A model generated the notes under the pieces. The model did no database searches and was not told the origin of the DNA. It was given only the letters and a program-made list of their open reading frames with translations. From Ignavibacteriota bacterium (GTDB lineage Bacteria > Bacteroidota > Ignavibacteria > UBA10030 > SZUA-254), in assembly GCA_016212665.1 (NCBI GenBank), contig JACREZ010000038.1, positions 1 to 64,000 of the forward strand: a stretch of 64,000 nucleotides of DNA, read 5' to 3'. Both the position numbers and the translations under genes were made by a program. Below are positions 1,664 to 50,270 of this stretch, one piece after another. The first letter of the stretch is position 1, and every line of letters starts with the position of its first letter.

Positions 1664-1664
1664 T

Positions 1665-3347: not shown

Positions 3348-3361
3348 GTGTCGTACGAAAC

Positions 3362-3405
3362 TTAAACTTAAAACCTAAAACCCATAACCTATAACCAATA
3401 ACCTA
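3362..3405. repeat. Low-complexity AACC-type intergenic repeat
   Basis: The stretch reads as degenerate 7-8 base words of the type AAAACC, TAACC and CAATAACC. Related runs occur at 4186-4212 and 8628-8650, also on the + strand and also directly outside gene ends. No coding or hairpin structure is visible. It looks like a dispersed slippage-prone intergenic repeat. Confidence 0.5.
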
Positions 3406-3407
3406 CA

Positions 3408-4130: not shown

Positions 4131-4212
4131 ACTTCCCTTTCTTCATTATTGAAAATGTTCCTTCAAAATTCTTTTTCATCAAACCCCGAACCCCAAACCC
4201 GTAACCAGTAAC

Positions 4213-4262
4213 TCTCTATCGAGCATCCTGCATCAAGAATCGAGCATCAAGAAACAAGCATA
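4213..4262. repeat. ATCGAGCATC-type degenerate intergenic repeat
   Basis: Short words such as ATCGAGCATC, CATCAAGAA and AGAGTATC recur here. On the opposite strand the run closely resembles 49410-49460 upstream of pdxJ (words TTTCTTGAT, CTCGAT, CTTGATGC), so the two are copies of one dispersed family. Confidence 0.5.
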
Positions 4263-4267
4263 GAGTA

Positions 4268-5326: not shown

Positions 5327-5446
5327 GGTAATTTCATTTTCAATTAGTGAGTATCAGTAAAAAGACTGTTTCGAACATCGTTCCCGAATTGTTCAATCAG
5401 CCTGTGCAAATTTCGTCAATACGCGCCTGAGAAAAAACCGTTTGTA

Positions 5447-7207: not shown

Positions 7208-7249
7208 CGTTCGTTTACTTGATAAGTTCGGGAATAATGTTCATAACCA

Positions 7250-7525
7250 CTAAGCGCCAAGCTCTTCATCGAATCCCCGTTCAAACAAATCGGCAACGGC
7301 GGCAAGGGCTTCGTTCTCGTCGGCGCCATCGAATTGAAGCGTCAGTTTCGAACCGCATTCCGCCGCGAGTGTCATCACGCCGATAATGCTTTTGCCGTTG
7401 ATATCCATTCCATCTTTACAAATAGTAAATTCCGATTTGAACTTTGCCGCTGTCTTTACCAGCGATGCCGCAGGACGAGTATGCAACCCTGCCCGGTTCC
7501 GTATTGTAACTTCGCGTTCGACCAT
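7250..7525 (-). CDS. ptsH: PTS phosphocarrier protein HPr
   Basis: The 91-residue HPr carries the phospho-acceptor His at exactly residue 15 (RAGLHTRPAA). Ser46 sits in NGKSIIGVM, the site used by HPr kinase/phosphorylase where that enzyme exists. Both key residues are therefore intact. It starts five bases after the prenyl synthase stop and precedes ptsI, so the three genes are probably cotranscribed. It acts in the cytoplasm between Enzyme I and its EIIA-type partners, none of which is encoded here. Confidence 0.95.
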   Translation of the reverse strand: MVEREVTIRNRAGLHTRPAASLVKTAAKFKSEFTICKDGMDINGKSIIGVMTLAAECGSKLTLQFDGADENEALAAVADLFERGFDEELGA

Positions 7526-7530
7526 CCTTC

Positions 7531-8517
7531 TTACGTATTCCGTTCGAGAAGTTGTTGTGCAAGCAAAGAAAGCATTGTCCTTGCGTTCGTCGGTTTCAGG
7601 CGATGCAACGCCTTCTGCGCGTTGTGTGTGAAAAATTCTACTTGCTCACGAGCGTGTTGCAAGACGCCTGTGTTCTGATAAATATCAAGCACAACCGGAA
7701 TACTCGCGCGCGTCAACTGCTTCTTCTCAACAACCTTTTGCAATATCTTTTTCTCGTTTCCTTTCGCCCGTTCAAGCGCATTCAATAATAAATATGTTTT
7801 CTTTCCTTCCAGCACATCGCCTCCGATGGGCTTGCCGAGTTGTTGTTCCGTCCCGGTAATATCAAGCAAATCGTCCTGGATTTGAAATGCAAGTCCGAGC
7901 GACGTACCGTATGTCCGGAGAGCGTTGACTTCCCGCGCCGTTCCGTTTCCAATCAATCCGCCAATCTCACATGAAGCGGAAAGAACGCGTGCTGTTTTCT
8001 TCTCTATCATCATCAGATATTCATCGAGCGTAACATCGCATCGCGTTTCGAATTCTTTATCAAATCCCTGCCCCTCGCACACCTGAACAAACGCATCAGT
8101 GAATATCTTCATCAATCCATGTATGTTCGTTGATGATGTTTTCAAGAGAGAGTGATACGCGTACGCAACCATCTCATCCCCCGAAAGAATGGCAACATTC
8201 GTATCCCATTTTGTATGAACAGTCGCCCGACCGCGACGGAGCGACGAATTATCCATCACATCATCATGAACGAGGGTAAAGTTGTGAAGCGCTTCCATCG
8301 CAACGGCGGCATGAAGCGCGCCCTGCGACTGACCGGAGATTGCTTCACATGCAAGCAGAACCAACACCGCACGCACTCGTTTTCCTCCTGCTTCCAATAC
8401 ATACTTCATTGGCTGATAGACGCTTGCCGGTTCGTTCCTGTTCACTAATAAGCGAAGTTGACGTTCGATGCGAACTTTGTACCGCGAGTAACGTGTATGG
8501 AAATTCTGATTCGTCAA
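7531..8517 (-). CDS. Polyprenyl diphosphate synthase (IspA/IdsA-type)
   Basis: The 328-residue trans-prenyltransferase condenses isopentenyl diphosphate onto an allylic diphosphate. The first Asp-rich motif is LVHDDVMDNS followed by LRRGRATVH near residues 80-100, with the usual two-residue spacing of DDxxD. The second is FQIQDDLLD near residue 215. The residues just before the first motif (MEALHNFT) are mixed in size, and I do not assign a chain length. Geranylgeranyl or octaprenyl products are both possible. It is the first gene of a leftward cluster with ptsH and ptsI and is divergent from thrA across a 137-base gap. Confidence 0.9.
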   Translation of the reverse strand: MTNQNFHTRYSRYKVRIERQLRLLVNRNEPASVYQPMKYVLEAGGKRVRAVLVLLACEAISGQSQGALHAAVAMEALHNFTLVHDDVMDNSSLRRGRATVHTKWDTNVAILSGDEMVAYAYHSLLKTSSTNIHGLMKIFTDAFVQVCEGQGFDKEFETRCDVTLDEYLMMIEKKTARVLSASCEIGGLIGNGTAREVNALRTYGTSLGLAFQIQDDLLDITGTEQQLGKPIGGDVLEGKKTYLLLNALERAKGNEKKILQKVVEKKQLTRASIPVVLDIYQNTGVLQHAREQVEFFTHNAQKALHRLKPTNARTMLSLLAQQLLERNT

Positions 8518-8589
8518 TGAATGAGTGTCGTGAATTGTTGAATTTGAATGAATGATAATAAGAAAACAGAGGGTGAAAACAAAAGGCGG

Positions 8590-8619
8590 CTTGTTTCTGA
8601 AAAGGATTTTACTATCTTT
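8590..8619 (+). promoter_or_regulatory. Candidate -33/-7 promoter for thrA
   Basis: TTG at 8590-8592, a 19-base spacer and TATCTTTG at 8612-8619 match the Bacteroidota primary-sigma consensus (TTTG, 19-21 bases, TAnnTTTG). It would give a leader of about 30 bases before the thrA ATG at 8655. TTGACA at 8617-8622 overlaps it but has no -10 partner. Confidence 0.4.
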
Positions 8620-8654
8620 GACAACCGAAACACAAACCCGTAACCAAACACACT

Positions 8655-11117
8655 ATGAAAATTCTAAAATTCGGCGGCTCGTCTGTCGCCTCTCCCGAAC
8701 GGATTCGCGGCGTTGCGAAGATAGTTCTTGAAGAATCAAAAAAAGAAAAACTCATTGTTGTCGTCTCCGCATTTCAAGGCGTAACCGATAAATTGTTGGA
8801 GTGCGCGCGTACTGCCGAGCGTGGCGATGCCACGTATGAAACTCAATTCAACATTCTTGCCGATAGGCATTGGGAAACCGCAAAGAGCCTTCACGCAGGA
8901 AAAATCCAGAAAAAACTTGCAGAACAAATCCGGCAATTGCTGAACGACCTGCACGATGTTTTGCATGGTGTGTATCTGCTTCGCCATTGCCCTCCGCGCG
9001 GGTTCGATTTAACTGCAAGTTTTGGTGAGCGATTATCGGCGCTGATAATTTCTTCGTTTATCAATAAAACTCACCCATCCTGTTTTGCCGATGCAAGAAA
9101 CTTTGTCGTCACCGATGACCAGTTCATGCACGCTGAAGTGTTGTTCGAACAAACAAACGCGGCAACACAAAAATATTTCAAGCGCCTGTGGAAAGAACAC
9201 CCGGCTACAACAATACCGCTCGTTACCGGCTTTGTCGGTTCTACCGAAGACGGTCGAACAACAACCATCGGAAGAAATGGTTCTGATTACACCGCGGCAA
9301 TTGTCGGCGCGGCGCTTAATGTTTCCGTCATCGAAATCTGGACTGACGTTGACGGCGTATTAAGCGCAGACCCGCGTGAAGTGCATGATGCGTTCGTTCT
9401 TCCTTCTATCTCGTTTGAAGAAGCGTTGGAGTTATCCTACTTCGGAGCCAAAGTCCTCCATCCTGCAACCATTGCGCCGGCAATCGCGAGCAACATTCCC
9501 ATTCGTATCAAGAACACAATGAATCCTTCCGCTCCGGGGACCATCATCGGAAAAGTCGAAGACGAAGGAGTAAGCGTTGCAAAGGGAATCACCTCTATTG
9601 ATAATATTACATTGCTGAATCTGCGCGGCATTGCAATGGTCGGCGTACCGGGAACGGCAGAACGATTGTTCCGCGCTCTTGCATCGCATAAAGTCAATGT
9701 CGTGATGATTTCTCAGGCATCATCCGAACATACGATTTGTTTTGCTGTGAAAAACCATGACGTGGCGCGAGCGCGAAAAGCAATTCAACAGGAATTTCAA
9801 TTCGAGTTCAGCACGAACCTGACTTCGATTGATGAAAAACCGGCGCAAACAATCATCGCTATCGTCGGTGAAGGAATGAAGGGCATTCCCGGTGTTTCCG
9901 GTAAAGTATTCCAATCGCTTGGACTGAATAACATCAACATCAGCGCAATTGCTCAGGGTTCTTCTGAACGGAATATTTCATTCGTTACCGATTCGTCGCA
10001 TAAGATTCGCGCTGTCAACGTTCTGCATCAGGCATTTTTTGAAGAACGGAAGCGGCTCTATCTTGCAGTTATCGGCGTGGGAAATATCGGGGCAACACTC
10101 TTGAAGCAATTACAACAACAACACTCTGTTTTATTGAACAAGGGATTCGATATCCGTGTGTGCGCGCTCGCCGACAGTAAACATGTTGTTGTGAACCACA
10201 ACGGGCTCAATCTCGAACATTGGCAGGAAGAATTACAACACTCATCGCACCGGCTCGATTTGCATTCGCTTGCTCATCGCATTGCAGAAATGAAACTGAC
10301 GAATGTTGCGCTTGTGGATTGCACGGCAAGTTCCGACGTGGTCAACTCGTATCAGGCATTCGTCGAAGCGAACATGCACATCATCACGCCGAACAAGAAA
10401 GCGAACGTCCTTCCGTGGAAACAGTATAACGAACTTGTAGAACTTCTTAACAAGAGGAAGAAATATTTTCTCTACGAAGCAAACGTCGGAGCGGGGTTGC
10501 CGATTATCTCCACGCTTCACGACCTCATCGCAAGCGGCGACACAATCATAAAAATCGAAGGAATACTTTCCGGTACGCTCAGTTTTCTTTTCAATTCGTT
10601 CGATGGAACAACACCGTTCAGTAAACTTGTCGAAGAAGCACAAGTCGCCGGTTACACAGAACCCGACCCGCGTGAAGATTTATCGGGAGAGGATGTTGCG
10701 CGCAAACTTCTCATTCTCGCACGCCAACTTGGTTGGAAGATGGACTTGAATCAGATTCCTCACGAAAATCTCGTCCCTTCATCATTACAAAAAGGGACGT
10801 TCTCGAAGTCCTTCTTCAGTATGTACACAACGTTCGATAATCACATGAACAAACGATTCGCGTCGGCAGTACAACGTAATGCTGTTCTCCGGTACGTCGG
10901 TGTGTTATACAATAACAAAGCAAAAACCGCATTGCTCGAATATCCCAACTCGCATCCGTTCGCCGGAACGAAAGGAAGCGACAACATCATCGCTTTCACA
11001 ACAAAGCGATATTCAAAAACACCTCTCGTTGTTCAGGGTCCCGGCGCCGGCGCTGATGTTACCGCAATGGGTGTCTTCTCCGATATTATTAAATTGTTGC
11101 ACTATCTCCCGTATTGA
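8655..11117 (+). CDS. thrA: Bifunctional aspartate kinase / homoserine dehydrogenase
   Basis: The 820-residue fusion catalyses the first and third steps of the aspartate pathway to threonine and methionine. The N-terminal kinase begins KILKFGGSSVASPERI and contains the ATIGRNGSDYTAA nucleotide and substrate region. Two ACT regulatory segments follow (GIAMVGVPGTAERLF and IIAIVGEGMKGIPGV), so threonine feedback control is expected. The C-terminal dehydrogenase opens with the NAD(P) loop VIGVGNIGATL near residue 475 and contains ANVGAGLPII and GILSGTLSF. The length equals E. coli ThrA. It is monocistronic here. A ThrA/MetL choice cannot be made from sequence alone, and threonine-type is the default. 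Confidence 0.93.
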   Translation: MKILKFGGSSVASPERIRGVAKIVLEESKKEKLIVVVSAFQGVTDKLLECARTAERGDATYETQFNILADRHWETAKSLHAGKIQKKLAEQIRQLLNDLHDVLHGVYLLRHCPPRGFDLTASFGERLSALIISSFINKTHPSCFADARNFVVTDDQFMHAEVLFEQTNAATQKYFKRLWKEHPATTIPLVTGFVGSTEDGRTTTIGRNGSDYTAAIVGAALNVSVIEIWTDVDGVLSADPREVHDAFVLPSISFEEALELSYFGAKVLHPATIAPAIASNIPIRIKNTMNPSAPGTIIGKVEDEGVSVAKGITSIDNITLLNLRGIAMVGVPGTAERLFRALASHKVNVVMISQASSEHTICFAVKNHDVARARKAIQQEFQFEFSTNLTSIDEKPAQTIIAIVGEGMKGIPGVSGKVFQSLGLNNINISAIAQGSSERNISFVTDSSHKIRAVNVLHQAFFEERKRLYLAVIGVGNIGATLLKQLQQQHSVLLNKGFDIRVCALADSKHVVVNHNGLNLEHWQEELQHSSHRLDLHSLAHRIAEMKLTNVALVDCTASSDVVNSYQAFVEANMHIITPNKKANVLPWKQYNELVELLNKRKKYFLYEANVGAGLPIISTLHDLIASGDTIIKIEGILSGTLSFLFNSFDGTTPFSKLVEEAQVAGYTEPDPREDLSGEDVARKLLILARQLGWKMDLNQIPHENLVPSSLQKGTFSKSFFSMYTTFDNHMNKRFASAVQRNAVLRYVGVLYNNKAKTALLEYPNSHPFAGTKGSDNIIAFTTKRYSKTPLVVQGPGAGADVTAMGVFSDIIKLLHYLPY

Positions 11118-11425
11118 TTTCGTAACTCTCATCCAATGCTTGAAGAACATCGGAGAGACAAATTCAAAAAACGAGAGGCAATTTCTAAAAAATTCCGGAA
11201 GACAGGGATATATTTTTGTAACCGTTGAAGCTTTCTGCAGACTGTTTCAAATCAACCGTTAATAGTTTGAACGTGGTGTAGGCATGATATGGAAACGATA
11301 ATTATTTTAGGATATGATTGCCATGAAAAATTGGAAAGTTAACTTGCCGATTCGCTTTTCCGGCATTGCAGAAAACAAGGGAGTTTTTGATTGCTACACC
11401 TAAATTTCTTACAATAGGCGCAATT
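11118..11425. other. 308-base intergenic stretch, thrA to cyclase
   Basis: I see no gene with real support. A 26-codon frame from ATG 11323 to 11403 overlaps the cyclase start and has no clear ribosome-binding site. TATTTTTG at 11211 resembles a -7 element but lacks a -33 partner. TGGAAA..TTGCC at 11331-11348 resembles a sigma-54 promoter but has 11 rather than 10 bases between the GG and GC. Confidence 0.5.
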
Positions 11426-13711
11426 ATGCCAGCAACTCCCAATCAACATACCGGTTCTCCCGAAAGCGTTCGCAAACTCGCCGCCATCATGTTCACTGAC
11501 ATCGTCAGTTTTTCCAAACAGATGGGGAAAGATGAACATGCAACGCTCAATCTTTTGGATATTCACAACAGGATTGTTTCTGAAATTATCGGGAAACATG
11601 CGGGGAGAATTATCAAGAGCATCGGTGATGCATTCTTTGTGGAGTTCGATAGTTCCGTCAGTGCCGTTATGTGTGCGATTGAAGCACAAACCTCGCTGAA
11701 GGAATATAACGAAGCGCACCCCGATGAAAACCCGATTGTCATCCGTATCGGCATCCATGTCGGCGATGTGGTGAAGAAGAACAACGACCTCTTCGGCGAC
11801 GGAGTGAATATCGCCGCACGCATCCAGCCGAAAGCGGAACCGGGAGGGATTTGCATTTCGGAAGATGTTGCCCGTCAGGTGCGGGGCAAAATCAATCTCC
11901 CGATGGTGAAGGCGGGAGTTGGAGATTTGAAAAACATTGATATTCCCATCGTTCTCTATCATATTGAACTCCCGTGGCAGAAAATACAACCCCAACCCGA
12001 ACAGCCGACGAAGAACGTTCCATCCTCCAAGAAAAAAATGGTTGTGGCGTTGGGAATTGTTCTTGTTGCGATTGCGCTTGGTTCGTTCGGCTACTGGTTT
12101 TTCTCCAAACGAATTTCTGTTCCAGCGGGAGAACGTTCGCTGGTTGTGTTGCCGTTTCAAAATGCCAGCGAACCAGCCAATGATTTCCTTGTTAATGGAA
12201 TCACGGATGAAATCAATAATCATGTGTCAAAAATTCCGGGAGCGCTCGTCATTGTAAAATCAGCAACTCAAAAATATCGGGGGACGAATTTTTCAAACGA
12301 TAATATTGCAGAGCGGTTTGGTGTCCGGTTCGTTCTTTCGGGGAGCGTCCAAATGACCTCCTCGCAACTCAACATCTCCGCAACGTTGTATGATGCAAAA
12401 GAAAAAGCCGTTCTGTGGGAAGAACATTTTGAGAAACCCCGTTCGGAGATTATGAACGCAGGAGAAAGTATTGAATCGAAAATATTTGAACTGTTTGACG
12501 TGCAGGAAGATGTTCGCAATCTCCACTCTAAAACCATTTCTCCGGATGCATACGAAGCATATCTCCGCGGATTACATCAACTAACAAAACAGGGAAGCAG
12601 TGAGAACGCCCTTGCTGTAGAATATTTTTCAGAGGCAATCAGCAAGCAACCGGATTTTCTCGGCGCATCGTTGTTATTGGCAGAATCCAAAGTACGTCAA
12701 TATGAAAAGGGGTGGGACGTGAGCATTGAATTATTGAACGATGCTGAATCTATCGTGAAAAATATATTGCAAAAAGAACAGACCAATGCACAGGCATTTG
12801 CAATCTATGGAAGCATCGAGCAACTTCGCGCCAACCAGTTGAAAGCATTAGAATATTATCAACGGGCAATAGCGCTGGATGAACATAATGTCGCGGCGTT
12901 GACGCGCAACGCGATTCTTTATCTTTACAATCTTGGAGAGCCTGCCAAGGCAGTTACCTATCTCAAGCGGGTGTATGAAATAAATCCGAACGATGGTCTC
13001 ATCTCGTCCAATTTAGGTGTTGGATATGCACAGTTACAAAATTATTCTGAGGCAAAGCGCATGTTCTGGAAAGCAGTTGAACTCGAACCAAACATTGATG
13101 ACCCGTGGATTAATTTGGGTGTTGCATACGAACGGCTCGGACTTACCGATAGTGCCATGTTTTGTTATGAACGAGCAATTGAAATCGAACCGACGAAAGT
13201 TTTAACGTATGAAAATGTTTTACCGTTACTTCTCTCCCTGCGCCAATATTCAACCGCAGAATCCCTTGTTACGACAGGAATGAAAGTCCTTCAAGGAAGT
13301 CATGAACTTTTTTATTTTCTTGGTTTGACAAATGAGTATCTCGGAAAAAAGGCGGACGCGGAACAATCATTCAACCAAGGTCTTCGCATGGTGAAAATGA
13401 AAACGGAAAAGAATCCGGGTCTTGCCGATTATTATATGTATGAAAGTTTGTTTCAAGCAAAACTCAAAGTCCGCACAGAAGCGTTGAGTGCGGCTCAAAA
13501 AGCAATTGACCTTGATTCGACAAATCCCTACGCAATAATGAACAGAGCAAAAGTTGCCGCGATGTTCGGAATGAAAGAAGATGTGTTGCGTTGGTATCAG
13601 CAAGCACGTTCGATGAATTCTGATTTCGACGCTTCGTATCTTACAACAGCCATTGAGTTCGAACAGTACCGCAACGACCAGGATGTATTGTTGATTGCGC
13701 GGACGAAATAA
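11426..13711 (+). CDS. Class III adenylate/guanylate cyclase with TolB-like domain and TPR repeats
   Basis: The N-terminal ~170 residues are a class III nucleotide cyclase. They show the first metal Asp in KLAAIMFTDIVSFS, the second in SIGDAFFVEF, and the GDGVNIAARI region. A single membrane span lies near residues 205-225. The C-terminal part holds a TolB-amino-terminal-like domain (SLVVLPFQN, NGITDEINNHVS) followed by about eight TPR repeats. The layout predicts a cytoplasmic cyclase with a periplasmic sensor. The frame is open from a TTG at 11366, but I prefer the ATG at 11426 because family members start shortly before RKLAAIMFTDI. The tail is clearly homologous to that of the kinase at 23241-25811, so the same input module drives two outputs. 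Confidence 0.88.
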   Translation: MPATPNQHTGSPESVRKLAAIMFTDIVSFSKQMGKDEHATLNLLDIHNRIVSEIIGKHAGRIIKSIGDAFFVEFDSSVSAVMCAIEAQTSLKEYNEAHPDENPIVIRIGIHVGDVVKKNNDLFGDGVNIAARIQPKAEPGGICISEDVARQVRGKINLPMVKAGVGDLKNIDIPIVLYHIELPWQKIQPQPEQPTKNVPSSKKKMVVALGIVLVAIALGSFGYWFFSKRISVPAGERSLVVLPFQNASEPANDFLVNGITDEINNHVSKIPGALVIVKSATQKYRGTNFSNDNIAERFGVRFVLSGSVQMTSSQLNISATLYDAKEKAVLWEEHFEKPRSEIMNAGESIESKIFELFDVQEDVRNLHSKTISPDAYEAYLRGLHQLTKQGSSENALAVEYFSEAISKQPDFLGASLLLAESKVRQYEKGWDVSIELLNDAESIVKNILQKEQTNAQAFAIYGSIEQLRANQLKALEYYQRAIALDEHNVAALTRNAILYLYNLGEPAKAVTYLKRVYEINPNDGLISSNLGVGYAQLQNYSEAKRMFWKAVELEPNIDDPWINLGVAYERLGLTDSAMFCYERAIEIEPTKVLTYENVLPLLLSLRQYSTAESLVTTGMKVLQGSHELFYFLGLTNEYLGKKADAEQSFNQGLRMVKMKTEKNPGLADYYMYESLFQAKLKVRTEALSAAQKAIDLDSTNPYAIMNRAKVAAMFGMKEDVLRWYQQARSMNSDFDASYLTTAIEFEQYRNDQDVLLIARTK

Positions 13712-13716
13712 ACCGA

Positions 13717-13765
13717 AACAGCCTGTCCATTAATCCACCAGCAATAACTTCAAGGGCAGGCTGTT
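13717..13765. terminator. Long-loop hairpin after the cyclase gene
   Basis: AACAGCCTG at 13717-13725 pairs with CAGGCTGTT at 13757-13765 around a 31-base loop, six bases past the stop codon. There is no strong T-tract, so termination is a tentative call. Confidence 0.4.
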
Positions 13766-13808
13766 CGATTGTCATATTTCTTCAAAAAAAGAAACCGCCT
13801 GAAAGATA

Positions 13809-13861
13809 AAGCCCACAACCATCATAATCCTTAACTTGAATTAGTCTAACAGTGTGGGCTT
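13809..13861. terminator. Long-loop hairpin between convergent genes
   Basis: AAGCCCACA at 13809-13817 pairs with TGTGGGCTT at 13853-13861 around a 35-base loop, 24 bases past the stop of the leftward gene. It probably serves as 3' end structure for that gene. No T-tract is seen, so confidence is limited. Confidence 0.4.
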
Positions 13862-13885
13862 GTTGTTTACTTATCTTATCATTTG

Positions 13886-16800
13886 CTACTTTGTTAAAGT
13901 AAGTTTCCTTATTTGACTAAACGGTTCTGCTTCTCCGTGAAGCGGAGTTGCCAGAAGTTTGTAGAAATACAATCCACTCGGTAAACCATCTGAGTGAAAT
14001 TCCACCGAACGGAATCCTCCTGCCTGAACGCCTTCAACAAGCGTAGCAACTTCTTTTCCGAGTACATCATACACTTGTAATGTTACGCGGCTCTCCATTG
14101 GCAGTTGATAGTTGATAACTGTTGAAGGATTGAACGGATTGGGATAATTTTGTTCAAGAATAAATTGTGTTGGCAATGGCTTGAGTTCTTCTACTCCGGT
14201 TTTGTACCGAACATCGGGAGTGGATAGAGGGATGATGCCAGCCGCAACCGTGCCCCCTTCATTGATTGTTTCCGCGATATTTTTTGCAATTTCATAGTTG
14301 CCGCCGGAATTATCTATGAGATTATCACAATAGGTAATTGCCTGAGCAACCGTTGCGCCGTCAGCGCTGATGACGGATGCCTGATGGATAAATCCCGATG
14401 CAACGTTCAACAGAAAAGCAAAAAGGTGCTGACGAGCCTGAGATATTTTCGAAACCGAACCTTTAAGGTTCATCACCGATTTTCCTGCAAGCAATTTATC
14501 GGTACAACCTGACGAACTTGGAGGGGCGTACACAACAACGGCATTGAGCGGATGCTCATTGAAATGTTCCTGAATGATATCAAGGGAATTACAAAGTGTG
14601 GCTCCGTCAATTTGTGCCGCTCCTTTCTCTCCGGTTGCAACGGCAAACTGATGTTTCCAGAAGCCGATACCGCGCGGCGAACCTGAAGCGTTTGAGCAAC
14701 TCAGTTCAAAGTTCACCGTTGCCTCATCGCCGCAGGGTAAGCTAACAGGAATTTCGGAAGAGAGCGTGGAGTACCCTAACGGCGTATGAACGGATACAAG
14801 ATACTCGCCTGCATTCATCTCATCGAACGAATAGTAGCCATTTGCATTGGTTGTTGTTGAAGCGGATAACGCTCCCGTTGCAACATCAAAGACATCAACC
14901 GGTACGCCGAGAAGGTCTTGGTTCTGCGTTGAACAATTGGAGGAAACCGTTCCTTCAATTGCGCTTGTTCCGTTGGTACACGTTGATTCAAACCGAAGAT
15001 TATCGAGGCGTAACACGCCATTCACGGTTTCTGTAGCATCAACAATTACTTTATCAAACGTGTAGCCCGTAACTCCTATAAATCTGAAATTGAGATTGGT
15101 AACAAAGCACTGTTCATAGATGATTGTGCCGTCATTACTTAACATCAGTTTCAGTCGCAGGTCATCTCCGGTATTTGTAAAAATTTCAAATCCGAGTTTA
15201 TTAACCTGCGTCGAGAAATTCAAAACCAGGTCAGGTCGTGGAAGCGGGGCAGTTGGGTTATTATTCGAAAGGCATGCAAATCCTTGCGGGTCGAATTGGC
15301 GCGGTCGCGTTGTGGTAATAATACTCGGACCACCGCCTGAAGTCAATGCGAATGAAACACCCATACTTTCATACTGGTTGGTAATTTGTGTTCCATTAGG
15401 AAATCCTTCGAAGTCAATTAATACTGCGTCGGAACCGAATGTTGACGGGTCGGTTAAGAGATGCGGATCCGGTACACCGCACCGCAAGCCATATTGATTA
15501 CCACCGAGCGTGACAAATGACGGACTGAATTCCAATGAACTTGTAACTTCGAATGTGGCTGTTCCTTCGTTGATTCCTCCCGGATTAAGTTCAAGTGTAA
15601 TCCCATTTATGAAATTGCCTGCAATTGTGGGGTACAACGATTCATCGGTTACAGGCAAAGCAAATACTTCGTCTTTCAAAAAAAGTCCATAATTGTAAAC
15701 ACCCAGAACTCGGATAAAGGAACAACCGATATCAGATTCATTTTCATTCACCAATGAGAGAGGGCATCGCATATACATCCACTCAAAGTTAATTGGTTGC
15801 ATGTTTACAGTGATTTCAACATTCTCTTCTGTACGACCAAGATCGTATTGATGAAGCATTGCCCCATCTATCGCTGGTCGAATCCAGAATTTCAAACCAT
15901 GAATAAAACTTCCACTCATCGTTGGATAAATTGATTCATCGGTACTAGGAACAACGACTGGGTCACCAGACGGGATCCATTCATATCCTCCATAGATTCC
16001 CGTTACATCAAAACCGGAACCGGGAATTACTTCACCATGTTGGTTGCTAACAAATGCAGTTGTCGAAACCATCTGCCATTCGAAATTTATTGGACCCATT
16101 CCAAATGATATTTCAATATGTTCCTCAGTCCTGCCAAGTTGATATTGATGTAAAATAATTCCATTAATTGCCGGGCGTACCCAGAATGTTAAGCCATTGA
16201 TAAAACTACCTCCCATTGTTGGATAGATTAATTCATCGGTAATTGGGAGGGTGACTTCTGTTCCGGAAGTAATCCACTCATATCCGCCGTAATAACCGGT
16301 GGCATCAAAACCAGAACCAGGAATTATGCTACCATACTGGTCTCGTACAAACGCCGTCGTCGAAACGGTTTGCCATTCAAAGTTGAGTGGGCCCATGCCA
16401 GTTGCAATCTCTATATGTTCTTCTGAACGACCCAGTTGGTACTGATGCAACATCACACCGTTTATTGCCGGGCGTATCCAAAAAGGGAACCCATTAACCC
16501 ACGAACCCAACATGGTTGGATATACAGATTCGTCTGAGATTGGGAGAACTATTGGCGATCCGGAATTCATCCATTGATAATTGGCGCCTGCATCAAATCC
16601 TGAACCGGGAATTACCTCGCCAGCTTGGTCACGAACGTAACATGTGGTAGAGACTGTCTGCCATTCAAAACTTGCTTCTGAAGTGTTTGCATCCACAACA
16701 AGTTCCTGTATTCGTCCCAAGGCATTCTGTTCGTGGCTGTTAACTCCGGGATAAATTTTGACTGAATAGTTTCCTGATGAAAGTGTTGCCACATTTCCAT

Positions 16801-16951
16801 TGTAGAACCATGCATCAACTGCCTGAATATAAACAGTTGAGCCGGGTATCTCGACCCCATTCTGGTCAACCACCCGAATCGTTACTTGGTTTGCTTGCAG
16901 ACTCGCTACTGCAAGCGCGAAAAAAAGAAAAAGATATAAGAACGTTTTCAT
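13886..16951 (-). CDS. Giant exported repeat protein with type IX sorting domain
   Basis: The 1021-residue protein starts with a signal peptide (MKTFLYLFLFFALAVASLQA). It carries three nearly identical repeats of about 98 residues (about 96-191, 192-290, 291-389) with the landmarks VSTTAFVRDQ, IPGSGFD, YPTM, RPAING and RTEEHIEI. Degenerate copies lie on each side. I do not recognise the repeat. Further on come a SdrD-B-like Ig module (EGTVSSNCS to NANGYYSFDEMNAGEYLVS) and a GIGFWKHQ module. The C-terminus, QNYPNPFNPSTVINYQLP to KLTLTK, is a type A sorting domain for type IX secretion. The protein is therefore expected at the cell surface or released. It lies 129 bases downstream of another type IX substrate and may be cotranscribed with it. 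Confidence 0.82.
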   Translation of the reverse strand: MKTFLYLFLFFALAVASLQANQVTIRVVDQNGVEIPGSTVYIQAVDAWFYNGNVATLSSGNYSVKIYPGVNSHEQNALGRIQELVVDANTSEASFEWQTVSTTCYVRDQAGEVIPGSGFDAGANYQWMNSGSPIVLPISDESVYPTMLGSWVNGFPFWIRPAINGVMLHQYQLGRSEEHIEIATGMGPLNFEWQTVSTTAFVRDQYGSIIPGSGFDATGYYGGYEWITSGTEVTLPITDELIYPTMGGSFINGLTFWVRPAINGIILHQYQLGRTEEHIEISFGMGPINFEWQMVSTTAFVSNQHGEVIPGSGFDVTGIYGGYEWIPSGDPVVVPSTDESIYPTMSGSFIHGLKFWIRPAIDGAMLHQYDLGRTEENVEITVNMQPINFEWMYMRCPLSLVNENESDIGCSFIRVLGVYNYGLFLKDEVFALPVTDESLYPTIAGNFINGITLELNPGGINEGTATFEVTSSLEFSPSFVTLGGNQYGLRCGVPDPHLLTDPSTFGSDAVLIDFEGFPNGTQITNQYESMGVSFALTSGGGPSIITTTRPRQFDPQGFACLSNNNPTAPLPRPDLVLNFSTQVNKLGFEIFTNTGDDLRLKLMLSNDGTIIYEQCFVTNLNFRFIGVTGYTFDKVIVDATETVNGVLRLDNLRFESTCTNGTSAIEGTVSSNCSTQNQDLLGVPVDVFDVATGALSASTTTNANGYYSFDEMNAGEYLVSVHTPLGYSTLSSEIPVSLPCGDEATVNFELSCSNASGSPRGIGFWKHQFAVATGEKGAAQIDGATLCNSLDIIQEHFNEHPLNAVVVYAPPSSSGCTDKLLAGKSVMNLKGSVSKISQARQHLFAFLLNVASGFIHQASVISADGATVAQAITYCDNLIDNSGGNYEIAKNIAETINEGGTVAAGIIPLSTPDVRYKTGVEELKPLPTQFILEQNYPNPFNPSTVINYQLPMESRVTLQVYDVLGKEVATLVEGVQAGGFRSVEFHSDGLPSGLYFYKLLATPLHGEAEPFSQIRKLTLTK

Positions 16952-17040
16952 ACGTTACTCCTTAAATTGTTTTTGTGTTGAAATTAGTTGGTAAGACTAA
17001 GTAGTAAGGTTAGGCAGAAGTAACGTGCATAGTAGAACGG

Positions 17041-17065
17041 GGAGATTCCGGAAGAATCTCCCCAC
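17041..17065. repeat. Perfect hairpin between two exported-protein genes
   Basis: GGGGAGATTC, five bases and GAATCTCCCC form a perfect 10-bp stem. It lies 16 bases after the stop of the leftward gene at 17081. It lacks a T-tract on that strand, so it is either a terminator helped by protein factors or an mRNA-processing structure that lowers expression of the following gene. Confidence 0.6.
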
Positions 17066-17080
17066 TCATTTTCTAATCCA

Positions 17081-20000
17081 TTATTTGACTAAAAGCATTT
17101 TCTTGTGTTGCGTAAATGATTTCTCTGTCGCCCCAACACTCGCCGCCTCCAACCGGTAGAAATACACACCCGTTCCAACATTCGATGCGTCCCAGAGTTT
17201 CGATTGATATCCTGCTTCCTGCACTTCATCAACAAGCGTGGCGACAAGTTGACCGAGCGTGTTGTAAATCTTCAATGTTACTTTCGCATCGGCAGGTAAC
17301 GCGTAGTTGATTGTTGTTGCCGGATTGAACGGATTCGGATAGTTCTGTTCCAATGTAAACTCTTGCGGCAGTGTTCGTTCCTGAACAGGAGGCATGCGGA
17401 GTTCGATGGAACCGGCAGGTTCATACAACACGTGGGAACCTTTCCCGTTCAGGATAATTTTCTTCCCGTCAATGGTTAATATAGTTGAGGAAGAAGAATG
17501 TGTTCCTTCCCACTTGAGTGTAACAGGATAACGTTCCGAAGTCAGAAGAATCTTTGTTACAGATTCTTTTTCCGTTTCGGGAGTTGCAACGATTCTCTGG
17601 TTAGAAAATCTCGCATCGAACACTCCCTGCGGCGGCGCGGGCGGCATCTGATACAATGCTAATGTTTTTGCAGTCAACTTTGCCGATGTTCCGAAATAGA
17701 GATTCTGTTTGGAACCTTCTGCGTCACTCACCGTCAGCACGTTCATCTCGTTTTCCAATACTGCACGCGCTTCTCTGAACTTTGTAGTTTTGGCAAACGC
17801 GTTGACATCGAACCGGAGTTCGCCTTCCTGACTTACTTTCACCCAATGACCTTCCATCGGTTTCAATGCTGTGGTCGTTGCGTATCCGTTATCGTAAGCA
17901 AAGAAATTCGATTCGATAATATCGGACGGAGAGGAAGTTACTGCATCGGCTTGCAACTCGTAACTTAACGCACCGACAATATTCCAACCCGCAGTCACGG
18001 GAATGGAGAGATATTCTTTATCGTATCCCATGACTTCGGCTTCTTGTTCGCCGGAGAACTTCAGCCAGTATCCGCCGCCGGGAGCCAGAGAAGTTTGCTC
18101 GACATATCCGTTGTTGAATGCAAACGCACTCGAAACAGCCGTTGGAAACACACTATCTTTCTGCGCTTTCGCCGTGGCAACAGGCAACGAGACCAAGTTC
18201 CATTTGTCTTTCACCATTTTTGCGACGTACGGTCCTTGCAATAACACCAATGAATCTTCGACTAACGGATTGTCGAGTTCAGATTCATCATAGCGCATCG
18301 AAAGTTCTGCTTTAGCATTGCTTGTTCCCGATTTTTCGATGCTCAACATTCTGGCTACGCGTGGTATTCCTTCCGCACTTACCAGCGATGAATTCTTCAA
18401 CGTGAGTTTCGGAATTCCCAACGCCCACTTGGTTTCCGGGAGAATATCCTGACCCGTTACAGTATTTTGTTCAACACTTCGTACACTATTGGTAACTGTC
18501 TTCCACCGCAGGCTGAATGCTCGCGGTGTTTCTTTTGCCCGCGTTGTTACTGCAATCTTCGATGGATACGTTCCTGTGCCGTTGAATTTGAGATAGGTTT
18601 TTTCGCTTTCAAAATTGTATGTTTCTGTCGATGCTGTGGCTAATGCACGCCGAATAGTTCCGTTGACAATATATCCTTCACCGGCAAGAGCCTGAGCTTC
18701 CGTATTTTCCACTTCAAGCGTATCTTCGGGACGCAAACTCAATGCTTTGATAATCGCAATGCGATTTTGAATAGTAATGTTTCCGCTACTTTGAACATCA
18801 GCAGAAGAATCAACGATGAGTGTATAGAATTTTCCAAACGTTTCGCCTTTGCCGTTTAACACCACTGTGGAATTGCCCGGAACAAATCCTTCATCCAATA
18901 CAGATGCTTTTTGGAGCGAGACTTTGTTTCCTTTCCATGAACCTCCGACGATAAAGTTCGGCATTGCGTCCGTTGCCACTTTCAAGGTACCGTTCACCGT
19001 CACATCTCCCTTAACAATTACTGAAGAAACACCACTGCTAATTGATAATCTTCCACCACCGCGAACATAGAGCGAGCCGATAATTACTTGGTCCATAGGT
19101 ATATCTATCACAGGATTTGTTCCGGCTGGTTGAATAACCACGCTATCAACTTTCGAGGGAATTCCAACCGGGTCCCAATTATCTGCATTTGACCATGAAG
19201 AATCAACATCTCCTACCCATAGTTTAATATTGAGCGGAAGAACGACAGAGCAAAAAATTCCCGAGCCAGCACTGAAACCAAGTTGATGTCCATTCCTTTC
19301 AACAAATGCTATCTCTTTAAGGTAGCTTGATGCCACAGATTGTATTAACCATGTATTACCGCCATTGGTTGTATAATATAATGCGGGATACCCAGCAGGC
19401 ACATCATTAACTGTAGATTGAACCGGATCTCTTCTTGAAAACCCTACGGCAAATCCTGTTGTTGAATTGATAAATTTAACTCGATTCAATGCAGAATTAA
19501 AATATGGAAGCGATTTCGATAACCACGACGTACCTCCATTTGTTGTCTGTAAAACAGTCGGTATAGCAGTAGGATATGTTCCAGTCATACCAACCAACCA
19601 ACCGTTTGAAGAATCAAGAAAATGAAGACCCTTCATAGAGCCTTGCGAGGGAAGATTCGCTGAGTTATCTATCCAACTATTTCCAGCATCTGTCGTTCTA
19701 AGAAGAATTGGACTGAACGTAGGGTAAGAGCCGACATCCCCAACCGTATATCCATTCAGTGAATCAATAAAGAAAACATCATATAACCATCCGCTTGTGG
19801 ATTCATATGCATGAGAAATTCCATTCCACGTAGTTCCCCCATCTGTTGATTTGATTATTCTTACTGTCGTATTCGGAAATGAACCATATGTGCCGACCGC
19901 AATAATCTTTTGACGATCCAAGAAGTGCATATCTTTTATTTCCGCCGCATGCGTATTCCATGTGATGTTATGCCAAGAATTTCCTGTATCAGTCGTGATT

Positions 20001-46083: not shown

Positions 46084-46491
46084 TCAAATCGCTCCTCCCT
46101 CAAAAACACTCCGATTTCGCCTGTTTTCCGTCCGTAATTGAATTCCGGGAGTCCGTAACTCCGCCACGGACTCCCGTACCTGTGCCACGGACTCCCGTAC
46201 CTGTACCACGGACTCCCGTACTTGTGCCACGGACTCCCGTACCTGTGCCACGGACTCCCGTACCTGTACCACGGACTCCCGTACTTGTGCCACGGACTCC
46301 CGTACCTGTACCACGGACTCCCGTACCTGTACCACGGACTCCCGTACCTGTACCACGGACTCCCGTACCTGTGCTACGGACTCCCGTACCTTTGCCACGG
46401 ACTCCCGTACTTGTGCTATGGACTCCCGTAGCCGCGCCACGGACACCTGCTTCCTATGACGGATGTTTTCTCGTTCCCACGCTCCTATCAA
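46084..46491 (-). CDS. Doubtful CDS: VRESVAQ heptad-repeat protein
   Basis: A 135-codon frame spells about 13 heptads of the type VRES-V(A/V)Q, which would form a coiled coil. However, its only start is a TTG inside a REP-like repeat. The opposite strand is equally open (PRTPVPV repeats), because a 21-base period keeps all frames free of stops. No ribosome-binding site is visible. I list it because the other 21-bp repeat array (3408-4130) is in a convincing gene. More likely this one is a noncoding minisatellite. Confidence 0.25.
46164..46436. repeat. Minisatellite, 13 units of 21 bp
   Basis: Thirteen contiguous 21-base units with the core CGGACTCCCGTA are present. Variation is nearly all at three positions after the core (CTG/TTG, TG/TA). 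Units 11 and 13 are the most diverged, and a partial unit precedes the array. There are no spacers, so it is not a CRISPR array. It is flanked by direct REP-like repeats. Confidence 0.95.
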
Positions 46492-46637: not shown

Positions 46638-48290
46638 ATGTTTGTCCATTATTTCACGCTTCGCACGTTGTGCAACGAACTCCATGAATCGCTCCATGGC
46701 ACTTCTATCGTAGAAGTATTTTCCCAGCAGAAGAATGAACTTTGTTTGATGCTGGAAAAAGAAGGAACGGAGATGACGCTTTGCATTTCCGTTGAGTCGG
46801 GGATGAATTATTGTCTGCTGAGAAATGATTTCAACCGTGCGCGGAAAAATTCCGTTGATTTGTTTCAACCGCTTCCTGGATTGAGCATCAAACAGATTTC
46901 CATTCATCCCACAGAAAGAATGCTGGTGGTTGATGTTGAAGACGGGATGAGGTTGTCTCTTCAACTGTATAATACTGCCGCGAGCAATATTCTTCTTACC
47001 AACCGTGAACAGGTTGTGAGTGAAGCATTCAAACGCGGAGATGAACTGAATGGGAAGCCGATGACAATTTCTTCCCGCGGCGATTGGAATATCGTGAAGG
47101 ACAATCAACATTTCACTGACGCGTTAAAACAGTTTGGGGAGAGGTCGGTGGAGGAAAGTATACGAAAAATTCTTCCCATGTTCGGGATGCTCTATTCAAA
47201 AGAAGTGCTGGTTCGTTCAGGGATTGACAGATTGAAGCAGACGGCATCACTAAACGAAACAGAAGTTCATTCCCTGTTCGATTCCGTTACCTCGCTTCTT
47301 CGCGAACTGGAACACGCGCACCCGGTTGTGTATTATGAAGAAGGAATTCCCGTCACTCTTTCGATGATGGAGTTACAACAGTTCAAAGAAAACGATTCAA
47401 AACGGTTTGAGAGTGTGAATGAAGCGGTGAGAATGTTGCTCGGTCAATCCTTCCGTGCGAAAAGTTTCGAGCATAAGAAGAATGAATTGCTTGATGCTCT
47501 CCGTCGTTCACTGAATCAAACAGAACGAACGGTGAAAGCAATCGAAAAAGAACTCGCTTCTTCCGAACGTGCAGAAGAATACGAACGAACCGGACACGCG
47601 ATTATGGCAAATCTTCATTCAATCAACAAAGGAATGAAGCAAATAGAATTAAGCGATGCGGAGGATTCAGAAAAGCAATTGAACATTCAACTCGAACCGG
47701 CGCTGACGCCGCATCAAAACGCCGAGCGATATTTTGAAAAAGCACGGAAAGCAAAACTCGCCCGTGCTGAAGCGGAGCAACGGCTTCACTCTCAAACTCG
47801 GCATCATTCAATGCTTCAACAATTTGTTAGTGAATTAGAAACATGTAGCTCACCGGATGAATTAAAAGAATGGATGATTCGGAACGAAGAACAGTTGTTG
47901 TTTCTCAAATCATCAAAAAATGATGAAGAGCGGATTCCGTTCCGGGTGTTTATGGTGGCAGGCGGTTTCGAGGTATGGGTGGGGAAAAGTTCTGCCAATA
48001 ACGATTTACTGACAACAAAATATGCCAAGCCGAATGATTTGTGGTTTCATGCACGCGGTGTTGGCGGTTCTCATACGGTGTTAAAAGTATCCGGCGGAAA
48101 GGTTCCGCCGCGCGAGGCAATCCAACAAACGGCGAGCATTGCGGCATATTACAGCAAAATGAGAAACGCACGCAATGTTCCGGTCGCCTACTGCGAGCGA
48201 AAATACGTCCGGAAACCGAAGGGCGTTCACGAAGGGACGGTGTTTCTTGAACGGGAAGAGGTGATGTTTGTGGAGCCGCGACTTCCGTAG
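46638..48290 (+). CDS. rqcH: Ribosome quality-control protein RqcH (NFACT family)
   Basis: The 550-residue protein belongs to the Rqc2/NEMF/FbpA family. It binds 50S subunits with stalled peptidyl-tRNA and adds C-terminal alanine tails. The N-terminal NFACT-N domain covers residues 1 to about 180 (FTLRTLCNELHESL, SNILLTNREQ). Helix-hairpin-helix and coiled-coil regions follow (about 270-400, charged). The NFACT-R domain is at the end, with KPNDLWFHARGVGGSH and YCERKYVRKPKG. The length is normal. It is followed by microcompartment genes with their own promoter, so no functional link is implied. Confidence 0.88.
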   Translation: MFVHYFTLRTLCNELHESLHGTSIVEVFSQQKNELCLMLEKEGTEMTLCISVESGMNYCLLRNDFNRARKNSVDLFQPLPGLSIKQISIHPTERMLVVDVEDGMRLSLQLYNTAASNILLTNREQVVSEAFKRGDELNGKPMTISSRGDWNIVKDNQHFTDALKQFGERSVEESIRKILPMFGMLYSKEVLVRSGIDRLKQTASLNETEVHSLFDSVTSLLRELEHAHPVVYYEEGIPVTLSMMELQQFKENDSKRFESVNEAVRMLLGQSFRAKSFEHKKNELLDALRRSLNQTERTVKAIEKELASSERAEEYERTGHAIMANLHSINKGMKQIELSDAEDSEKQLNIQLEPALTPHQNAERYFEKARKAKLARAEAEQRLHSQTRHHSMLQQFVSELETCSSPDELKEWMIRNEEQLLFLKSSKNDEERIPFRVFMVAGGFEVWVGKSSANNDLLTTKYAKPNDLWFHARGVGGSHTVLKVSGGKVPPREAIQQTASIAAYYSKMRNARNVPVAYCERKYVRKPKGVHEGTVFLEREEVMFVEPRLP

Positions 48291-48372: not shown

Positions 48373-48660
48373 ATGGCGGACATATCACTTGATGCACTCG
48401 GAATGGTAGAAACCAAAGGATTGGTCGGCTCCATCGAAGCTGCCGATGCAATGGTCAAAGCGGCAAAGGTTACGCTTCTCGGAAAAGAAGTTATCGGCGG
48501 CGGTTACGTAACCGTTATGGTACGCGGCGACGTCGGCGCAGTGAAAGCGGCAACCGATGCAGGCGCGGCGGCGGCACAACGAGTCGGTGAATTGGTTTCG
48601 GTGCATGTCATTCCTCGTCCGCACTCCGACGTGGAAATGATTCTTCCGAAACGCGGATAA
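48373..48660 (+). CDS. Bacterial microcompartment shell protein, BMC-H
   Basis: The 95-residue single-BMC-domain protein ([20 protein letters not shown]) would form hexamers that tile a microcompartment shell. The pore-loop region reads [18 protein letters not shown], very close to my memory of the CsoS1 carboxysome proteins (GGGYVTVLVRGE). The end, [15 protein letters not shown], matches the family C-terminus. It is followed 40 bases later by a second BMC protein with a long tail. No encapsulated enzyme, pentamer (BMC-P) or trimer is encoded in the window, so the cargo is unknown. Confidence 0.95.
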
Positions 48661-48700
48661 TATTTCCTCGCAACTCCACTTTCATTTTTCTTCCGAACGT

Positions 48701-49402
48701 ATGTTGGATTATGCTCTCGGGCTGATTGAAACGCGCGGGCTTGTCGGCGCAATTGAAGCGGCAGACGCGATGGTCAAAGCGGCGCATGTCGAATTGATTG
48801 GCAAAGAACGCGTTGACGCGGGGTTCATCGTCATCAAAGTCAAAGGCGATGTTGCTTCCGTGAAAGCGGCGGTTGATGCCGGCGCTGCTGCGGCGCAACG
48901 CGTTGGTGAATTGATTTCCACGCACGTCATTCCTCGACCGGATGCCGATGTGGAAATTTTGATTTATCCTCCGCCATCGCAAACGAAAGAGAAATCGCTT
49001 CCGCATTTTCCTAAGGCAGAACCGGAGAAGAAGAAGAAAGAAAAACCCACGGCGGTTCCTCCGTCGGAACCAAAGAAAAAACGGGGGCGACCCGTAAAAT
49101 CAAAAAAAGGAATTCAGCAAAAAATTGAAGAGCAACCGCAGGTTGAAATTCCTCTTGTAGTCGAACAAGCAGCGGAACCAATTCCGGTTGTCGAGCCGAC
49201 GGCTCCGTTGCCGATAGTGAATGATTCGATTCCCGCTGTGGATGAACAATCATACATGGCGGAACTTGATAAACTTTCCGTCCATGAGTTGCGGCACTAT
49301 GCGCGAAGTGTTCCCGGACTTTCTATTTACGGACGACAAATATCCCGCGCAAACAGGGGAGAGTTAGAAGCGGAATTGTTGAAAGTAAAATTCCCAAAGT
49401 AG
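48701..49402 (+). CDS. BMC-H shell protein with nucleic-acid-binding-like tail
   Basis: The 233-residue protein has a normal BMC domain in residues 1-90 (LGLIETRGLVGAIEAADAM to HVIPRPDADVEIL), with a pore-region VDAGF instead of GGGY. Residues about 95-185 are a Lys/Pro/Glu-rich linker containing KKKRGRPVKSKKG, an AT-hook-like RGRP core. Residues about 188-233 read LDKLSVHELRHYARSVPGL, YGRQISRANRGEL and so on, matching the Rho-N/SAP-type helix-extended-loop-helix fold. The tail therefore has two potential DNA- or RNA-binding elements. It is cotranscribed with the plain BMC-H gene. Its role, anchoring a shell to the nucleoid or packaging nucleic acid, is inference. Confidence 0.9.
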   Translation: MLDYALGLIETRGLVGAIEAADAMVKAAHVELIGKERVDAGFIVIKVKGDVASVKAAVDAGAAAAQRVGELISTHVIPRPDADVEILIYPPPSQTKEKSLPHFPKAEPEKKKKEKPTAVPPSEPKKKRGRPVKSKKGIQQKIEEQPQVEIPLVVEQAAEPIPVVEPTAPLPIVNDSIPAVDEQSYMAELDKLSVHELRHYARSVPGLSIYGRQISRANRGELEAELLKVKFPK

Positions 49403-49409
49403 TTTTTTC

Positions 49410-49537
49410 TTGATTCTGGTTTCTTGATTCTCGATACTTGATGCTTGATGCTGGGTTCTTGAAAGAGGATTCGAGTGTGTCATCACAGAAGACAGTAATC
49501 AAGGATCAAGTATCCAGCATCCAGCAACATCACTTAT
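49410..49537. repeat. Inverted, degenerate GATGC/TTGAT-type repeat upstream of pdxJ
   Basis: The left half (TACTTGATGCTTGATGCTGG) and right half (GGATCAAGTATCCAGCATCC) are roughly inverted copies, so the leader could fold into a long imperfect hairpin. The left half belongs to the family seen at 4213-4262. Confidence 0.5.
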
Positions 49538-49547
49538 CAACAAGAAT

Positions 49548-50270
49548 ATGCGTCTCGCCATCAATATTGACCACATAGCAACCATCCGAAACGCACGCGG
49601 CGGAATATTCCCCGACCCGGTTGAAGCCGCACATATTGCCGAACAAGCCGGAGCGGAGGGAATTGTCTGTCATCTGCGCGAAGACCGGAGACATATTCGC
49701 GATAATGATGTGTTTCGCTTGCGGAAAGAAATTACGACCAAACTCGATTTGGAGATGGCGGCAACTCCGGAAATCATTTCAATTGCAAAACGGGTGAAGC
49801 CGGAACTCGCAACGCTTGTCCCGGAAAAACGGAAAGAACTAACAACGGAAGGAGGGCTTGATGTCCTTCGGAACTCCAAACTCCTCAGAAAAGCGATTGC
49901 TCAACTTCATGATTCCGGTATCGCTGTCAGTTTGTTTGTTGACCCTGTCCGTGAACAGATTGAAGAGTCAAAATCCATCGGCGCGGACATGATTGAAATT
50001 CATACCGGTGAATATGCCGACGCAACAACTTCCTCTGCGCGGAAGAAACATCTAGACGCAATCAAATCCATAGCGAAGTTTGCCCGCACACTCGACCTCG
50101 GAGTGAACGCCGGGCACGGACTCGATTACACCAACATCAAACCGATTGCCTCAATCAAAGAAATTGAAGAAGTGAGTATCGGTCATGCGATCATTGCGCA
50201 CGCGGTGTTTGTCGGGTTGGAACCGGCGGTGAAAGAAATGATTGAGTTGATGAACAATAGAAAACGATAA
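49548..50270 (+). CDS. pdxJ: Pyridoxine 5'-phosphate synthase
   Basis: The 240-residue PdxJ closes the pyridoxine ring from 3-amino-1-hydroxyacetone phosphate and 1-deoxyxylulose 5-phosphate. Signature segments are LAINIDHIATIRNARGG at the N-terminus, CHLREDRRHI (catalytic His and phosphate site), ATLVPEKRKELTTEGGLD, and LGVNAGHGLDYTN near the C-terminus. It is the partner of PdxB at 34.9-36.1 kb in the DXP-dependent vitamin B6 route. A strong terminator follows 14 bases later. Confidence 0.96.
   Translation: MRLAINIDHIATIRNARGGIFPDPVEAAHIAEQAGAEGIVCHLREDRRHIRDNDVFRLRKEITTKLDLEMAATPEIISIAKRVKPELATLVPEKRKELTTEGGLDVLRNSKLLRKAIAQLHDSGIAVSLFVDPVREQIEESKSIGADMIEIHTGEYADATTSSARKKHLDAIKSIAKFARTLDLGVNAGHGLDYTNIKPIASIKEIEEVSIGHAIIAHAVFVGLEPAVKEMIELMNNRKR

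Follow-up and report, generated by a model that had tools for sequence, protein, structure and literature searches.

The two adjacent genes for BMC-H shell proteins at 48373-49402 on the + strand of the window (by which we mean the whole 64,000-nucleotide stretch of DNA analysed) are, judging by sequence comparison, the hexamer part of a metabolosome of the fragmented (FRAG) type, a type already catalogued in Ignavibacteria. The second protein, BMC-H2, ends in a small helical domain that, to go by its conservation and by structure prediction, is real and under selection. We give an even chance to the reading that BMC-H2 is a EutK-like positioning subunit, with a tail domain unrelated to that of EutK, that would tether the shell to the nucleoid or to RNA.

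A pair of hexamer genes and the C-terminal domain of the second

Open reading frames for both shell proteins were found where they were expected (Table 1), on the same strand and separated by 40 bases, and both proteins (BMC-H1, 100.4 bits; BMC-H2, 96.1 bits) score well over the Pfam BMC cut-off of 24.5 bits. The assembly that contains them (3.9 Mb, 99.7% complete) has Ignavibacteriae MAGs as its nearest named relatives. The first-pass annotation had described BMC-H1 as CsoS1-like with a GGGY sequence; GGGY is indeed present, but the protein passes the NCBIfam cut-off for EutM (135.4 against 133) and fails that for BMC_CsoS1 (113.6 against 166), and is therefore EutM-like rather than CsoS1-like. 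A carboxysome identity was rejected on the same CsoS1 score. In most named loci a copy of BMC-H1, 84-98% identical, lies directly upstream of the tailed gene; long open frames in some relatives raised the possibility of a BMC-H1/BMC-H2 fusion, which was dismissed because a stop codon lies between the two.

Downstream, pdxJ stays close to the shell pair in many relatives, and is not thought to be part of the compartment. An NFACT/RqcH-like gene (46638-48290) lies 82 bases upstream of the pair, and just before that gene a 21-bp tandem repeat of 13 copies (91% matches, 46163-46444) has an open frame on both strands. The gap between BMC-H2 and pdxJ (49406-49528) contains short TTCTTGATTCTGG-type repeats and a 31-nt imperfect inverted repeat (84%).

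Table 1. Coordinates of the shell genes, the parts of BMC-H2 and the downstream neighbour (positions in the window).
Feature	Coordinates	Strand	Basis or remark
BMC-H1, plain EutM-like hexamer shell protein, 95 aa	48373..48660	+	Pfam BMC 100.4 bits
BMC-H2, tailed BMC-H shell protein, 233 aa	48701..49402	+	ORF; Pfam BMC 96.1 bits, residues 5-80
BMC domain of BMC-H2	48713..48940	+	Pfam PF00936 match in genome scan
Lys/Pro-rich disordered linker of BMC-H2, residues 89-181 (93 residues)	48965..49243	+	pLDDT mostly 47-65
AT-hook-like motif KKKRGRPVKSKKG	49073..49111	+	read directly; core RGRP at 49082-49093
Conserved C-terminal helical domain of BMC-H2, residues 182-233	49244..49399	+	divergent Rho_N/SAP-like, with reservation
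pdxJ, downstream neighbour	49548..50270	+	NCBIfam PdxJ 356 bits; synteny

The layout proposed at first pass for BMC-H2, in which the shell domain continues through a linker with an AT-hook motif into a C-terminal fold, is borne out by the reading frame, the Pfam match, the motif KKKRGRPVKSKKG itself and structure prediction. AlphaFold models the full-length protein with confidence over residues 1-88 and 182-230 but not over the linker between them, and the last 60 residues modelled alone give a pLDDT of 90.5 with four helices (9-17, 21-30, 39-43 and 46-57 of the 60-residue model), corresponding to a folded domain of about 49 residues. Among 27 aligned orthologues the mean pairwise identity is 72% in the BMC domain, 19% in the linker, only about half of which is alignable, and 60% in the tail, where the motif reads L-x-VH-x-LR-x-x-AR...G-x-x-I-x-GR-x-IS-x-AN. 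Twelve tail columns, including one His and three Arg, are invariant across 30 sequences; invariant positions include the basic and polar residues H195, R198, R202, R212 and S215, with N218 nearly so, and the net charge of the tail is just slightly positive.

Conservation of the tail had been set beforehand as a refuting test, and it is the tail, and not the linker, that is kept: the pair occurs in 41 of 60 related genomes and the tail is present in all 41 of these, whilst a scan of 84,980 species genomes returned 80 loci, in every one of which the tail is on a BMC-H. These loci fall in five phyla, Bacteroidota (Ignavibacteria and others), Latescibacterota, Gemmatimonadota, Zixibacteria and two Firmicutes. 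The wider scan demands GR[QE]IS[RIM]AN[KR], and divergent or non-BMC copies may escape it; because the motif is required, conservation of this stretch among the 80 loci is partly selected.

In the linker, KKKRGRPVKSKKG has a GRP core with basic flanks, as an AT-hook does, and is a putative DNA contact. A [KR]GRP core arises by chance in 0.1% of shuffles of the window's linker, and the strict core is carried by 8 of 80 named orthologues, where shuffled linkers would yield 0.12 (approximately 70-fold); the AT-hook core is found in two separate groups of genomes, the relatives of the window and Melioribacter-like genomes. Nevertheless, the motif had been taken as a defining part of the protein, which does not hold, since it is present in just 11/80 named loci overall and, by a looser core pattern, in 7/30 order relatives, and many linkers are acidic (net negative in 51/80 named orthologues). 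The conserved element of BMC-H2 is, from these alignments, the tail domain, with the AT-hook a minority feature.

The remaining shell genes and the cargo enzyme

The earlier proposal that the pair could build a minimal two-protein compartment is contradicted by the remainder of the genome, in which the other components are scattered and were not visible in the window. In addition to the BMC-H pair on contig C38, there is one copy of BMC-T on contig C15, directly after an RnfC/PduS-like gene, exactly three BMC-P at two places on contig C25 (one pair and one single), and, on contig C6 (G000:C6:78800-98700, 9168-10814, minus strand), an acylating aldehyde dehydrogenase with an encapsulation-peptide (EP)-like C-terminal helix. 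This enzyme passes the NCBIfam cut-off for acetylating acetaldehyde dehydrogenase (623.7 against 620.1). It also has, as in the order relatives examined, a second conserved segment, SWMEEIDERIRLKAGN, which follows the catalytic domain and precedes the EP-like end, and which is missing from the enzymes of two Firmicutes eut operons. PduL-type phosphotransacylase was found neither in the window's genome nor in 55 of 60 relatives, and was rejected as a core part.

These components travel with the tail. BMC-P is present in every relative with a tailed BMC-H, nearly always in exactly three copies, and in just two of the 19 relatives without the tail (G031 and G043), where the BMC is another one and includes PduL. 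Tail and EP-bearing aldehyde dehydrogenase occur together in 39 of 60 genomes, the tail only in two (both incomplete), the enzyme only in one and neither in 18 (Fisher p = 4e-12, a value that overstates independence because the genomes are related).

The EP-like end of the enzyme bears also on the reading, named at first pass as a refuter, that the tail is itself an encapsulation peptide, or else some other unspecific extension. Encapsulation peptides are C-terminal helices on linkers, and in this respect the tail is alike. C-terminal extensions of BMC-H, up to 200 residues long, are moreover described as common in the BMC catalogue's account, which gives encapsulation peptides as amphipathic helices of 15-20 aa on cargo (PMC8217296). 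The tail, however, belongs to a shell protein and forms a domain of four helices over about 49 residues, in which polar positions are invariant, and the proper EP-like end sits on the aldehyde dehydrogenase instead, so that we consider this reading very unlikely.

FRAG BMCs, reported by Sutter et al. in 2021 from Ignavibacteriae and relatives and of unknown function, are characterised in the catalogue passages that describe them by a BMC-P triplet and by shell genes at up to six places, the scattered loci being what defines the type (PMC8217296). Although the shell pair is isolated among housekeeping genes, it is thus scarcely credible that a minimal compartment, or an open sheet lying on the nucleoid, is built from these two hexamers without the products of the other shell genes, given that BMC-T, three BMC-P and the EP-bearing enzyme are found in the window's genome and in nearly every relative with the pair.

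The neighbours of the scattered genes vary. BMC-T adjoins a PduS-like gene in 17/17 loci examined, and in the window's genome the two (G000:C15:1-20000, 920-19756) lie within a cluster of the anaerobic-purine-degradation type, with YgfK-like, selenium-dependent xanthine dehydrogenase, PLP-dependent lyase, YgeY, YgeW and XdhC genes. A cluster of this type stands beside BMC-T in 6/17 genomes examined and is not conserved across the order, and xanthine or purine catabolism as the general cargo was discarded on that count. The BMC-P pair of the window's genome adjoins a primary-type sigma factor gene (L009 10516-12027), and a fragment of a like sigma factor gene comes after the tailed BMC-H in one Latescibacterota genome (L091 9707-11543).

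Two Firmicutes, Candidatus Formimonas warabiya (L107) and HGW-Firmicutes-14 (L118), have the tailed BMC-H gene with eutM on one side and eutE on the other. The gene order, eutB-eutC-eutA-eutL-...-PduS-BMC-T-eutQ-eutM-tailed BMC-H-eutE-pduL, was assigned largely by eye from translations, and the operon is read as complete. Since the tailed protein occurs in eut operon context also, the tail is not specific to a single cargo.

Identity and possible role of the tail

The first-pass description of the tail as Rho-N/SAP-like holds in part, and through the orthologues rather than through the window's own protein. Pfam Rho_N (PF07498) matches 22 of 30 order-level orthologous tails at E up to 1 (best 1.2e-5) and 15 of 41 diverse tails (best 1.2e-4), but neither Rho_N nor SAP in Pfam matches the tail from the window. 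Rho_N is the family matched most often by the tails, though weakly, and in many orthologues the sole family match; its curated cut-off is reached by the tail of one relative (with its neighbours in frame), most members remaining below. When 25 whole genomes were scanned, Rho_N matched Rho and three BMC-H tails and nothing else, and profile-profile comparison of the tail with the Rho_N domains of the relatives' own Rho gave a collinear alignment, with a gap of about five residues, that is weak (P 0.02-0.14). Foldseek searches of PDB and BFVD with the tail model returned no significant match, which is unsurprising given the small size of the domain and says little for or against, and a PDB sequence search with the tail returned nothing significant. 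With reservation, we regard the tail as a divergent Rho_N/SAP-like domain. Rho_N is chiefly familiar from Rho, the terminator that binds RNA, and small helical domains of such shape also bind proteins.

Two other identities were rejected: E3_binding (the peripheral subunit-binding domain), suggested by resemblance in the GR motif, matched no tail in the 25 genomes and was blank in hhalign, and hhalign of the tail profiles against the E. coli EutK C-terminus gave no domain alignment that would indicate homology between the two tails. The literature searched contained no paper on a BMC shell protein that carries a SAP domain or a Rho termination factor domain. What the first-pass annotation had put forward, a shell subunit that carries a domain of nucleic-acid-binding type, is upheld in respect of the domain, conserved in 41/41 order orthologues, with binding itself predicted. 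Its statement that no microcompartment is known to have an evident DNA- or RNA-binding shell subunit is not, as there is a precedent in EutK, whose C-terminal domain, a helix-turn-helix, hints at binding of nucleotides (PMC5821096) and whose deletion in Salmonella leaves Eut BMCs polar and static (PMC12487888). PduK has a role similar to that of EutK (PMC13052382).

The reading of BMC-H2 as a positioning subunit builds on observed features, i.e. the genes and their architecture, the conserved domain, the full shell, the co-occurrence of its components and the place beside EutM in two eut operons. We infer nucleic-acid binding, a cytosolic orientation and a positioning role for the tail, in a scheme in which BMC-H1 would form the facets and BMC-H2 would join the shell alongside it through its BMC domain. 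The long flexible linker would keep the helical domain, of the Rho_N/SAP kind, at a distance from the shell, where, on the cytosolic side, it would most likely bind nucleic acid, either RNA or the DNA of the nucleoid, with the AT-hook as a possible second DNA contact in some lineages; this contact would tether the organelle and disperse it for inheritance, in the manner of EutK in Eut compartments. BMC-H termini lie on the concave, outward (cytoplasmic) face in recombinant shells, the native orientation being debated (PMC6109187). Of the two roles suggested at first pass, a tether to the nucleoid is thus still plausible and is the one we prefer, whereas capture of nucleic acid inside the compartment is not favoured.

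Counting against a tether are the acidic linkers, which in 51/80 orthologues would seem odd for a general DNA tether, and the just slightly positive charge of the tail. Acidic linkers in many relatives are equally in keeping with the main rival, in which the tail is a protein-docking domain that recruits a cargo enzyme or scaffold to the shell with no nucleic-acid contact; so too are a surface with more invariance than is usual in proteins that bind nucleic acid non-specifically (12 columns, 30 sequences), the lack of a significant Foldseek match to nucleic-acid binders and some evidence of a concave-in orientation in native shells (PMC6109187). However, the tail is equally conserved in the two eut operons whose aldehyde dehydrogenase is without SWMEEIDERIRLKAGN, and this segment is therefore not its general partner; furthermore the family that the tails match is Rho_N, and the linker has an AT-hook repeatedly. 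We consider docking unlikely, whilst taking it seriously.

In another rival reading the tail domain would not be a tether: by binding RNA or a nucleotide it would serve as a sensor, or else would regulate the expression of the shell locally. The occurrence of Rho_N in RNA-binding Rho, the position of BMC-T within a purine-degradation-type cluster in the window's genome and the sigma factor gene adjoining the BMC-P pair would suit such a function, but the purine cluster accompanies BMC-T in only 6/17 genomes examined and we know of no regulatory precedent for a short tail on a shell hexamer, and we judge it improbable.

Returning to the positioning subunit, its extension to FRAG compartments at large is a more tentative proposal, which we would put at somewhat below an even chance: a nucleic-acid-binding domain on a shell hexamer may be a general component of the fragmented metabolosomes of several phyla, serving as a one-protein nucleoid anchor that would provide positioning without ParA/McdAB. 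Being on a BMC-H in 80/80 loci from five phyla, the tail domain is usable as a marker for finding widespread FRAG compartments, and it offers a testable handle on microcompartment positioning.

Comparison with known systems

The window's genome resembles the FRAG type, as the catalogue presents it, in its BMC-P triplet, in shell genes at several distant places, and in having an aldehyde dehydrogenase and no signature enzyme by the shell genes; the conserved C-terminal domain is not mentioned in the catalogue passages on the type, and nothing in the genome contradicts FRAG (PMC8217296). The first-pass suggestion of a new system survives as a real conserved feature, within a compartment type and with a shell-subunit precedent that were already published (the FRAG description in PMC8217296; PMC5821096). 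As for a xanthine-utilisation (Xau) BMC (PMC6620236), in which the xau enzyme set would be expected beside the shell genes, the genes observed near BMC-T in the window's genome are those for selenium-dependent xanthine dehydrogenase, YgfK, YgeY and YgeW, an association seen in only 6/17 genomes examined.

With the Rho_N domain of terminator Rho the tail shares a collinear helical core and the Pfam matches in 22/30 orthologous tails, but it has about five extra residues, which bear GR-x-IS-x-AN, and is fused to a BMC domain rather than to the Rho motor. DNA-binding tails disperse other bacterial inclusions, as reviewed for PhaF, PhaM and AlgP, where one protein sits on the inclusion and binds DNA non-specifically, thereby dispersing it (PMC13052382); these act on PHB or polyphosphate granules and are unrelated proteins, and the comparison is of working principle only.

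A further comparison is with EutK of E. coli and Salmonella, which likewise combines a BMC-H domain with a C-terminal domain of nucleic-acid-binding type, and in two Firmicutes the tailed BMC-H has a similar place in the eut operon. The tail of EutK is, in contrast, a helix-turn-helix with no detectable similarity to that of BMC-H2, and the NCBIfam model PRK15466 gives 89.2 bits, below its cut-off of 218. If the positioning role is correct, BMC-H2 and EutK would together indicate that unrelated small domains have been recruited independently to the same place on the shell hexamer.
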